A DNA stretch of 39,594 bases from Thermoleophilia bacterium (lineage in GTDB: Bacteria > Actinomycetota > Thermoleophilia > Solirubrobacterales > 70-9): NCBI GenBank assembly GCA_016650125.1, contig JAENWT010000021.1:1-39594 (forward strand), in the 5' to 3' direction. The position numbers and the translations under genes are program-made. The first letter of the stretch is position 1, and each line of letters opens with the position of its first letter. Of the stretch, positions 28,353 to 34,893 are shown piece after piece. The notes below the pieces were generated by a model, which saw only the letters and a list, made by a program, of their open reading frames with translations, had not been told where the DNA came from and made no database searches.

Positions 28353-28426
28353 GCGCCCGTAGCTCAGCTGGATAGAGCGTCGGTCTACGAAACCGAAGGT
28401 CACTGGTTCGAATCCAGTCGGGCGCA
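28353..28426 (+). tRNA. tRNA-Arg (anticodon ACG), island integration site
   Basis: GCGCCCG pairs with CGGGCGC, with A as discriminator and no encoded CCA. The anticodon arm tcggt-ctacgaa-accga carries ACG. A TACAAT box lies at 28314-28319. The bases from the anticodon loop to the 3' end are repeated at 32257 and 34849, so the gene serves as attB for integrated elements. Confidence 0.95.
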
Positions 28427-28428
28427 CT
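28384..28428 (+). repeat. att copy A: 3' part of tRNA-Arg
   Basis: This 45-base segment runs from the anticodon loop (tctacga) past the tRNA 3' end to ...gggcgcact. It is identical at 32257-32301 and 34849-34893. This is the segment tyrosine recombinases typically use as crossover core in tRNA genes. Confidence 0.85.
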
Positions 28429-28443
28429 CGCTAACACCGATGA

Positions 28444-28551
28444 ATTCCGCTCAACGCCGCGGAGTTCTCCCATGGCGTAGGAATTTGCTCCAATCGGCCG
28501 GAATCCGCCCTCGGCTCCTCAAGTCGAATAGGACTATCGCTCAAAGAAGCC
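28444..28551 (+). repeat. Island left-end repeat, copy 1
   Basis: About 108 bases beginning attccgctcaacgccg and ending gactatcgctcaaagaagcc. The copy at 32316-32422 is aligned with about 16 differences and one single-base gap by eye. Both copies lie just inside an att core, so they look like shared ends of related elements. Confidence 0.75.
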
Positions 28552-28673
28552 TCGGCCAGATTTTCCAACGCTCCTTCAACATGTATAGCTAGCGATTCAG
28601 CCCGCGGCGGCAGGCTCAAAATCTGACCGTCGCAATAACGAATCGGGTCGGGTATCTGTTCTCGGTAGCGCCA

Positions 28674-28702
28674 TTGCAATCCTGGCTTCGACGGGCTAGT
28701 GT
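28674..28702 (+). promoter_or_regulatory. Promoter of the multicopper oxidase gene
   Basis: TTGCAA (28674-28679) and TAGTGT (28697-28702) are separated by 17 bases, about 60 bases before the ATG. No operator-like palindrome overlaps it. Confidence 0.45.
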
Positions 28703-28761
28703 GAAACTCACGATCCGAGTGGCTGAAATCAGTCGCGAGCGACTAACGGCTGGGGGCCCAA

Positions 28762-32468: not shown

Positions 32469-33416
32469 TTACCCACTCTGACAACCGATCTTTCCGCGTT
32501 TCAGGATTGGGCCATTGGTCGAAATAAACTTCCAACGGGCTGACCGGGTTCGAGATCCGCGCGTCAAGGCCAGCCGGAGAGCTCCTTGCGCCGCACTAGA
32601 GACAGGCTGACCCGGTTTAGGATTAGACCAACGAAGCTTGCCTTGGCTCTTATTGTTGGTTGGATAGCCGCCGCGTCCGGCAGCTCCGGAGACGAACTGA
32701 GTGATGCCCCGCTCCGGGTAAAAGACCTGCATGTCGTGATCATGTCCGGACAAGAAGATCTTCGCCTTACCTGAAAGAAGTTGATAAAGCGGCTCAAGAG
32801 CTGTTCCATCGCCATGGTCTCCGGTCGAGTACCTCGGCCTATGGCTGATCGCGATCCGGCAATTACCCCGCCCGGGGCTACTGGCGAGGACAGACTGCAG
32901 CCAGCTGTATTGATCCGAACCTGACCGCGTGGATTCTTCAGAGTCCAGGACTATTATTTGCCATCCAGAAGCATAAAAATTGGAGAACCTCGGAGGAGCC
33001 TTGCCCCGCTTTGATTTCCAATAAGGATCAAAGCCAGTTGCTCTGTTATTGAACTCGTGGTTGCCGAGGGTCGGAACTGTTCTACTGGAGAACCGACCGA
33101 AATTGCGATCGTAATTGTCAACAAACTCTCGAGCGGTGCCGTTTTCATAGACGTCACCCAGATAAAGCAAGTAGCTGAATTGTTTTGATCCGATCAGCTT
33201 ACTTACGGGTTTAGAGGCAGCCCCTTTGCCGGCGTCTCCGAAAGCCCATAAGTTAGTCACTGGTGATCGATCTCTTGATTTCGTCCACGGAGCAGAGCGC
33301 GTGGCAGCTGTCGAGGAACCTGGACGATCAGAAGATGCGCAGGCAACCACCGCTAACAAGAGACCTACAAAAACAGAGCCTATTAGCATCCGCTGTCTCG
33401 GCTGATCCAATTGCAC
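32469..33416 (-). CDS. Metallophosphatase-like lipoprotein (purple acid phosphatase type)
   Basis: This protein has 315 residues. An N-terminal hydrophobic stretch ends in the lipobox VVAC (Cys near residue 27). The metal blocks are FGDAGKG, YLGDVYENG, TLGNHEFN, ISHRPRYS and LSGHDHDMQVF, in the order of purple acid phosphatase/metallophosphoesterase domains. The Tyr in GDVYENG matches the iron-binding Tyr of that subgroup. The GTG at 33416 follows a TAAGAT box by a few bases; an ATG at 33389 is an alternative. Likely a cell-surface phosphatase or phosphodiesterase, part of island 2 cargo. A separate cytoplasmic phosphoesterase occurs at 8857. Confidence 0.8.
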   Translation of the reverse strand: MQLDQPRQRMLIGSVFVGLLLAVVACASSDRPGSSTAATRSAPWTKSRDRSPVTNLWAFGDAGKGAASKPVSKLIGSKQFSYLLYLGDVYENGTAREFVDNYDRNFGRFSSRTVPTLGNHEFNNRATGFDPYWKSKRGKAPPRFSNFYASGWQIIVLDSEESTRSGSDQYSWLQSVLASSPGRGNCRIAISHRPRYSTGDHGDGTALEPLYQLLSGKAKIFLSGHDHDMQVFYPERGITQFVSGAAGRGGYPTNNKSQGKLRWSNPKPGQPVSSAAQGALRLALTRGSRTRSARWKFISTNGPILKRGKIGCQSG

Positions 33417-33610
33417 TGAGCGATCTTATCCGCCCTGAACACGATCCAAACAAATTTACGGAAGGTCGCCACCGGACATGATGAGGAGGCGACCGTCGCG
33501 CAGCGCCACAAACGACTCCCTTCGATTCGAAAGAAGCTCGTTCGCTTTGAATGCGGATGACGCAGCTTCACGACATTCTGGCGGCTGTCGAGCGGGCCCC
33601 GCTGTGTCCC

Positions 33611-34423
33611 TCAGGTATCCGAGTCGATGACCGCGACGATAGCGCTCACGATTGCTGAATCGTCTCGCTTGGACAGCTCTTCGTTGAACCATTCCTTGAT
33701 GACATCACGGCGTATCTCGAGCATCACCGCCTGAACCCGGTCATCGGTCATGCGAAAGCGCTCGGGGACGTAGCAGCCGGAAAAGGGCTGGTTCAGCTCA
33801 GTTGAACCGGACCAAGCTGACGTTGCAACTCTCACAAGAGCAGGAGGCGTGTGGTATCTGTCGGTGCCGACACAAAGCGACGGTCGGGCTTGATCGGCGT
33901 GCAGTTCGTATGGCAGTGGATCACGTGGATAGGAGTGAACGTCGATGATCAGTACCTGGCCGACTTCGTTCAGCCGCTCCTCGACCAGGCGTTCAAACGC
34001 CCTTGCGTAGGGCCAGTAGTAGCTGTTCATCAGCCGCTCGTCATCGGTCGGGTCCGTGGAACGCAGCTCTCGCTGATCGGTTGTACGCAAGTACACGGCC
34101 CCCATCCCTACCGAAAGCATCTCCTCCCGAGCGTCCGGGAAACGCTTGGGATCGACCAGAAGACGGGAGTTCTGATTTAGAAACATCCAGGGCTGCCGAC
34201 GTGCACGCCGGCGAGCGGCACGTGCGAGTCGGTCGGTATCTGCATCCGTGATGGCGTCGAGTTCGGCTTCCAAGCTCGAACTGTCGATCAGAAACCGCTT
34301 ATGTTCGGCGGCGGGGATATGTCGGGAAGCGTGTGGCACATGCTTGATCACCCCGCTCGTGGGATCTCCCGGCTCGACGTTCCACACCTCTTGATTTCCC
34401 ATCACGGCTTCCGGCATAGACAT
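33611..34423 (-). CDS. N-formylglutamate amidohydrolase-like protein
   Basis: This 270-residue protein matches the family that hydrolyses N-formylglutamate or related acyl amino acids. It has IKHVPHASRHIP near residues 26-37, RFLID, then DADTDRLA near 60-67, FLNQNSRLLVDPKRFPD in the middle and IIDVHSYP near 158-165, which hold the metal-binding and catalytic residues. The ATG at 34423 has a second ATG two codons on; no strong ribosome binding site is seen. No other histidine-degradation gene is nearby, so a role in the Hut pathway is unlikely here. It is island 2 cargo, read in the same direction as the genes on either side. Confidence 0.8.
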   Translation of the reverse strand: MSMPEAVMGNQEVWNVEPGDPTSGVIKHVPHASRHIPAAEHKRFLIDSSSLEAELDAITDADTDRLARAARRRARRQPWMFLNQNSRLLVDPKRFPDAREEMLSVGMGAVYLRTTDQRELRSTDPTDDERLMNSYYWPYARAFERLVEERLNEVGQVLIIDVHSYPRDPLPYELHADQARPSLCVGTDRYHTPPALVRVATSAWSGSTELNQPFSGCYVPERFRMTDDRVQAVMLEIRRDVIKEWFNEELSKRDDSAIVSAIVAVIDSDT

Positions 34424-34503
34424 GAACCAGAATCACTGACCTGAACACTTGTTGATCGCCCCTCCCCGCGTCGTTCCCAACTCAACGGAAAGGCGATCGG
34501 GGT

Positions 34504-34779
34504 TCAGGCGTTGCGCGCCGCTTCCCCTTCGGCCTCCATCACTGCAAGCCGCGTGTAGTAGTCGGCGAACTCGTTCAGGTGAGCCAGTGCGATCTTCGCC
34601 GTAATGATCGGATCGTCTCCGGTTACGTCGGTCGCCGGGTCCTGGGAGCCGTGCTCCAGCTCGACATTCATTCCCATTCGGAACTGCTCCAAGTCGAATA
34701 GCGAGGTTTCCCAGTCGATGCCGATCTGCTCGCCGGCAGTCCTGGCTTCTTCCGAGGAGACATGCGATTGCGCGCTCAT
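34504..34779 (-). CDS. DUF5661 family small protein
   Basis: The ATG at 34779 gives 91 residues; a longer start at 34818 would add 13 residues that do not look conserved. The body carries the DUF5661 pattern: IGIDWETSLFDLEQFRMGMNVELEHG, then DDPIITAKIALAHLNEFADYYTRLAVME. The conserved E-H and A-H-L-E-YY positions are often seen in small helical proteins of soil bacteria and phages. Function unknown. It is the last gene before att copy C. Confidence 0.7.
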   Translation of the reverse strand: MSAQSHVSSEEARTAGEQIGIDWETSLFDLEQFRMGMNVELEHGSQDPATDVTGDDPIITAKIALAHLNEFADYYTRLAVMEAEGEAARNA

Positions 34780-34848
34780 CCAGTTGAAGGTAGCAGAACG
34801 GATAGTGGCTATTGGCACCTACTTTGGCGGCGGCTGTCTGACCGGCAA

Positions 34849-34893
34849 TCTACGAAACCGAAGGTCACTGGTTCGAATCCAGTCGGGCGCACT
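34849..34893 (+). repeat. att copy C: 3' part of tRNA-Arg
   Basis: Third exact copy of the 45-base core. The left neighbour is ctgaccggcaa and the right neighbour is ttggatctgg, unlike the right flanks of copies A and B. It is either the chromosomal end of the tandem islands or the start of a third, unrelated element extending beyond the window. Confidence 0.85.

Follow-up and report, generated by a model that had tools for sequence, protein, structure and literature searches.

Tandem islands with the 3' end of a single RNA gene at their boundaries are known from Dehalococcoides. According to the available part of that report, 16 of the ssrA islands carry an integration module and 15 do not, and the latter were proposed to be possible cis-mobilizable elements, CIMEs (PMC3146451). 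As described there, these islands are the closest in plan to the tRNA-Arg array presented here. The Dehalococcoides islands use the tmRNA gene and a serine recombinase, whereas the present array uses tRNA-Arg(ACG) and a tyrosine integrase; in contrast to the islands of that account, the array also contains a small unit that lacks an integrase and bears an arm box as its mark (PMC3146451). The origin of CIMEs by decay and accretion is outlined in a review (PMC5704250). Streptococcal CIMEs of 1.2–13 kb and gene-free microCIMEs of 130–220 bp are given in the accessible sections of another report, and their sizes match those of the segments here, the 171–182 bp segments of one related genome (G002) being microCIME-sized (PMC7563491). 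In the sections at hand, the streptococcal CIMEs resemble the present segments in being att-bounded tandem units without recombination genes; they derive from ICEs or IMEs, whereas a conjugative parent was not recognised here among the searched ORFs (PMC7563491, PMC5704250). Up to three elements in tandem are mentioned for S. salivarius, in contrast to at least six segments here (PMC7563491).

The additive island at tRNA-Lys of Methylophilaceae, as excerpted, also has recurring tRNA-end repeats and variable content, but its repeats are 20 bp, unlike those found here (PMC10872708). Tycheposons are likewise islands that carry cargo, lie at tRNA genes and use a tyrosine recombinase; in the excerpts they span 4–200 kb and carry their own recombinase, whereas segments 1 and 2 have none (PMC10872708, PMC11389934). 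CALIN, thought to be moved in trans, resemble the present case in being integrase-less arrays of cargo units; as the same partial source has it, they depend on attC sites and an integron integrase, in contrast to the duplicated tRNA-Arg halves and attP-like arms here (PMC11389934). Among the matches listed in the literature on the lineage or on integrase-less tandem islands, there was no paper on this locus. The locus is described as a known kind of mobile-DNA array in a little-studied bacterial group. This kind of pile-up is already known, and the present one stands out for its long array and for the arm box by which members without an integrase are marked.

The window is the entire contig C21 (39,594 nt) of the host genome (G000, 2.83 Mb in 41 contigs). 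The comparison sets were 18 genomes of the genus including the host, 50 of the family and 232 of the order, with one genome per species. The Pfam and PADLOC survey of cargo covered the main ORFs of the array. Behind one tRNA-Arg gene, at least six inserts stand in a row, mostly cargo without a mobility enzyme. The features are listed below, with coordinates on C21 unless contig C2 is named.

28353–28427, plus strand: complete tRNA-Arg(ACG), the attachment gene (ARAGORN)
28384–28428, plus strand: att core copy 1, which begins at the anticodon loop and extends one base beyond the tRNA (exact repeat)
28385–32258: segment 1, 3.9 kb
28439–28551, plus strand: left arm of segment 1, of type A, with its core box at 28531–28544 (end alignment)
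28762–31728, plus strand: multicopper oxidase with FG-GAP repeats in segment 1, 988 aa (Pfam)
31817–32185, minus strand: small protein of segment 1, 122 aa, no Pfam match (ORF)
32225–32256, plus strand: right end of segment 1 (by-eye comparison with other right ends)
32257–32301, plus strand: att core copy 2 (exact 45-mer)
32258–34850: segment 2, 2.6 kb
32311–32422, plus strand: left arm of segment 2, of type A, with its core box at 32402–32415 (end alignment)
32469–33416, minus strand: calcineurin-like phosphoesterase in segment 2, 315 aa (Pfam)
33611–34423, minus strand: N-formylglutamate amidohydrolase family protein in segment 2, 270 aa (Pfam)
34504–34818, minus strand: DUF5661 protein in segment 2, 104 aa (Pfam)
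34849–34893, plus strand: att core copy 3 (exact 45-mer)
34850 to the insertion sequence, then C2:214: segment 3, spanning the contig gap
34894–34980, plus strand: type B left arm of segment 3 (end alignment)
35032–39340, minus strand: four main ORFs of segment 3 (Pfam/PADLOC)
35910–37094: DUF4062 protein in segment 3 (Pfam)
37895–39340, minus strand: PD-Lambda-1 relative in segment 3 (PADLOC, E 7e-117)
39490–39594, plus strand: start of an IS3-like insertion sequence, with the contig break inside it
C2:214–10835: segment 4, with small proteins, one of them with a SPOR domain (Pfam/PADLOC)
C2:10835–22913: segment 5, with a Ser/Thr kinase and an integrase (Pfam/PADLOC)
C2:22913–26368: segment 6, with a methyltransferase and a DUF1254 protein (Pfam/PADLOC)
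C2:26368–27040: perhaps segment 7, 672 bp

The first-pass annotation had reported a 45-base stretch of the tRNA that recurs exactly at 32257 and 34849, and both exact 45-mers were recovered. A further search of the whole host genome with a 44-mer and up to 3 mismatches, as that annotation had proposed, found the core seven times, in each case exactly and always on the same strand; its reversed-pattern control gave none. Three of them start on C21 (28385, 32258 and 34850) and four on C2 (214, 10835, 22913 and 26368). The exact 44-mers of the host are confined to the array, and repeats at unrelated tRNA loci, which would have spoken against insertion, did not appear among them. An eighth core copy with 3 mismatches was found at C2:27040 with a 43-mer, and a longer query left a weak 36-bp trace at C2:28057. 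Every core copy after the tRNA gene starts at the anticodon loop and lacks the tRNA 5' half. Therefore, from the core copies including the mutated eighth, C21 and C2 together look like an array in which at least six segments, each bounded by att cores, lie in tandem; its one tyrosine integrase that looks intact belongs to segment 5. Two related elements inserted successively at one attB had been proposed. Successive insertion is well supported, but the number rises to at least six segments; the array reaches the window end and goes on in C2, and the end type of segment 3 differs.

Judged by its motif, the end of C21 presumably reads as the start of an IS3-type transposase gene. The start of C2 reads as the end of such a gene, and the two contig ends look like parts of one and the same IS3 element. 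Since the same IS start is also found at the end of the C16 stretch examined, the order C21–IS–C2 is only inferred; it is preferred because the array goes on in C2, whereas the genome-wide 44-mer search (up to 3 mismatches) found the tRNA-Arg half absent from C16. Segment 3 should then continue on C2:1–213. On the other side, the protein encoded at 27248–28174 (minus strand) adjoins the tRNA, and members of its cluster lie near tRNA-Arg in nine genus genomes. Therefore, the left side is chromosome. This protein has no Pfam match, and three internal repeats with 75-nt units at a spacing of 285 bp were observed in it. A glycerate kinase beside the array on C2 was considered as the right flank and rejected, its relative being present in just one of the 17 other genus genomes at 48%. 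The genes right of the tRNA that are common to G009, G010 and G011 were not found on C2:1–56000. Thus, the distal end of the array is undefined.

The sequences just inside the first two core copies had also been called homologous, and the alignment agrees. The identity is 79% between 28439–28500 and 32311–32372, 92% between 28501–28551 and 32372–32422, and 84% over 113 bp when the two left ends are aligned with gaps. This type A end occurs just twice in the host, so that the suggested search for further copies of the 108-base end added none there, but it succeeded in related genomes. Type A ends were found in segments 1 and 2 and in G002, G008, G015 and G017, type B ends in segments 3, 4 and 5 and in G002 and G017, and type C ends in G002, G008, G012 and G015. 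The type A core box is GGACTATCGCKCAA. An exact search of the 50 family genomes, made without reference to the tRNA, gave 10 matches in 5 genomes, and the control gave none. In all 10 cases a tRNA-Arg half on the same strand precedes the start of the box by 103–106 bp; looser type A boxes also follow tRNA-Arg fragments in G020 and G044 and stand outside this count. The mean pairwise identity of 12 type A ends is 0.91 in the box region and 0.66 in a first box; the spacer has 0.57 and the sequence just inside 0.36. Judged from these alignments, the fixed spacing and the better conservation of the boxes than of the spacer would be expected of arm-type integrase sites.

The claim that the first two islands hold only cargo and no integrase was upheld. 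PF00589 had no match on C21, and tblastn with four integrases found no remnant in segments 1–3 (weak matches with E of at least 1.6). The Pfam results for the main ORFs of segments 1 and 2 contained no other recombinase type either. An integrase gene near another core copy, which the first-pass annotation had advised looking for, is present at C2:20637 in segment 5; it is the one array member among the six places of the host genome with PF00589. Two of the non-array proteins are probably XerC and XerD, and each of the 18 genomes has strong matches of this kind. The array integrase shares 65% identity with the integrase in the array of G001, whose contig was named Solirubrobacterales bacterium 67-14 in the genome scan for integrase relatives. 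Its identity to the G008 and G015 integrases is 48–49%, and that between these two is 82%. The scan found 41 related loci, mostly under Thermoleophilia, Solirubrobacterales or Actinobacteria titles. A relative is also encoded in 10 of 81 viral-contig stretches, the closest four being 41–44% identical.

The first segment of G008 combines an integrase with a type A end that has one mismatch in the box. In G015, the tRNA-proximal segment has a type A end, and the last 16 bases of its contig also start the integrase contig, into which the open frame reads on; the two contigs are probably adjacent. From these two cases, one of them through the probable adjacency, type A goes with one integrase clade (clade A). 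Type B appears to go with the other clade, to which segment 5 belongs (one case). No clade A integrase was found in the host by PF00589 or tblastn. A strict match of arm type and clade was rejected, because the G001 integrase falls in the segment 5 clade and its left end is different; clade and arm type are not one to one. The unlinked integrases of G024 were also rejected as drivers of the G024 array. Their four stretches have no type A box (up to 2 mismatches) and no close tRNA-Arg(ACG) half; two tRNA-like fragments in them have 10 mismatches, and one looks like another tRNA-Arg.

The strong match to the defence protein PD-Lambda-1 in segment 3 indicates that the array holds likely anti-phage cargo. 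A type A segment of G008 encodes a relative of the 122-aa protein of segment 1, with 73% identity. Phage packaging or capsid-interference genes were not found by Pfam among the main ORFs. Other cargo was observed in related species. A type A segment at tRNA-Arg in G015 (L045 10264–18124, L169) begins with a respiratory nitrate reductase gene, and the following ORFs look by eye like the remainder of a cluster for nitrate respiration and molybdate. G024 has three integrase-less segments of 3.2–3.4 kb each in a row (L133 4350–14355); two of them are copies that have diverged (about 75% over 1.8 kb), with a glycosyl-hydrolase-like protein and a beta-propeller protein. A C-terminal CARDB-like domain of about 98 residues was seen in differing surface-type proteins near arrays of four species (L038, L040, L046, L048, L057, L060 and L066). 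It was set aside as a cassette signature, as it adjoins several end types.

The tRNA-Arg half was matched in 150 of the 232 genomes of the order. By tally, 49 of the 232 have at least two copies of it, not always in tandem (some copies in G169 and G194 are widely separated), and 21 of the 50 family genomes are among the 49. Segments were counted at 42 loci from the genus and from the other array genomes of the family, a bounded segment being one with two fragments on one contig; segment 3 of the host, because of the contig gap, and loci L053, L068–L071 and L142 were left out. Integrases were located by PF00589 in the genus, G020, G024, G027 and G044, and by tblastn alone in the others. Of 36 bounded segments, six have an integrase (3 of 23 inside the genus), and the 30 without a detected one are an upper bound because of the genomes searched by tblastn alone. 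An integrase is present in 5 of 13 tRNA-proximal segments and in 1 of 23 beyond (p = 0.016), as accretion with decay predicts. In G002, three gene-free segments of 171–182 bp lie between tRNA-Arg halves (L039 5968–6150, L042 82–253 and L057 4216–4387).

We consider it likely that 28384–34893 holds the two members nearest the tRNA in a tandem array formed by accretion, in which CIMEs accreted at one attB. Each segment would extend between two successive copies of the tRNA 3' half, with a left arm, core and right end like a tyrosine-integrase attP, and the crossover would take place inside the anticodon loop. Segments 1 and 2 would be CIMEs in structure. The att sites of one target gene are on both sides of them (45-mers at 28384, 32257 and 34849), they have no recombination genes of their own, and Pfam found no conjugation or mobilization genes among their main ORFs. 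They would have descended from integrase-bearing islands, with the type A arms retained and the integrase lost. Both may still be mobile, either together with a neighbouring integrase-bearing element or once an integrase reading type A arms enters the cell. Against this reading, no relaxase or conjugation gene was recognised by Pfam in the main ORFs searched, so that ICE or IME ancestry of the parent element is no more than a candidate; the integrase-bearing type A relative in G008 also has no recognised conjugation gene among its searched ORFs. In addition, the integrase-less segments of the host adjoin the tRNA and the integrase is distal, which is the reverse of the simplest accretion order, and the sole array integrase is of the clade that accompanies type B rather than type A.

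The first-pass annotation had suggested satellites moved by the integrase of another element. Such integrase-less units would be kept by selection on the att arms and moved in trans by clade A integrases in a CALIN-like way. This would suit the position of the integrase-less segments beside the host tRNA, the conservation of the arm boxes above the spacer, the presence of an integrase in just one of the nine bounded segments whose type A box has 0 or 1 mismatch, and the row of three such segments without an integrase in the single-contig genome G024. However, the suggestion is unproven, since the resident integrase is in a type B element and the integrase-bearing elements matched by type A ends were seen only in related species, no clade A integrase having been found in the host. 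The arm conservation may simply reflect recent integrase loss, and the overall excess of integrases in tRNA-proximal segments fits ordinary accretion followed by decay. We therefore regard the satellites as unlikely, and descent as CIMEs explains the data at least as well. It is also doubtful that all but the integrase-bearing segment are dead, immobile leftovers of old insertions: C2:27040 and C2:28057 are clearly degraded and the G002 segments of 171–182 bp are gene-free, but the seven exact cores and the box and spacing retained in the arms of segments 1 and 2 argue otherwise. An assembly artefact or a chance repeat of the tRNA half could be imagined from the fragmented host assembly with its contig break within the array. 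It is extremely improbable, as all copies begin at the anticodon loop, lack the 5' half of the tRNA and are followed by a few arm types that recur across several species, and the same pattern on the single contig of G024 contradicts it.

Beyond the preferred accretion of CIMEs, a speculative and quite improbable extension is that tRNA-Arg(ACG) of the family is a cassette bank. Nothing but arm boxes, at a constant distance from the tRNA-half core, would define its units of one to three genes, and several integrase clades that share the core and read different arms (A, B and C) would shuffle the units in trans. If so, arrays without any integrase would stay mobile in a CALIN-like manner through duplicated tRNA halves. 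The tRNA-Arg 3' half is a recurrent insertion hot spot in this order, and the cargo found there includes nitrate respiration genes, a defence-gene relative and secreted proteins. The arm boxes predict which integrase pairs with which segment, and thus mobilisation in trans becomes testable.
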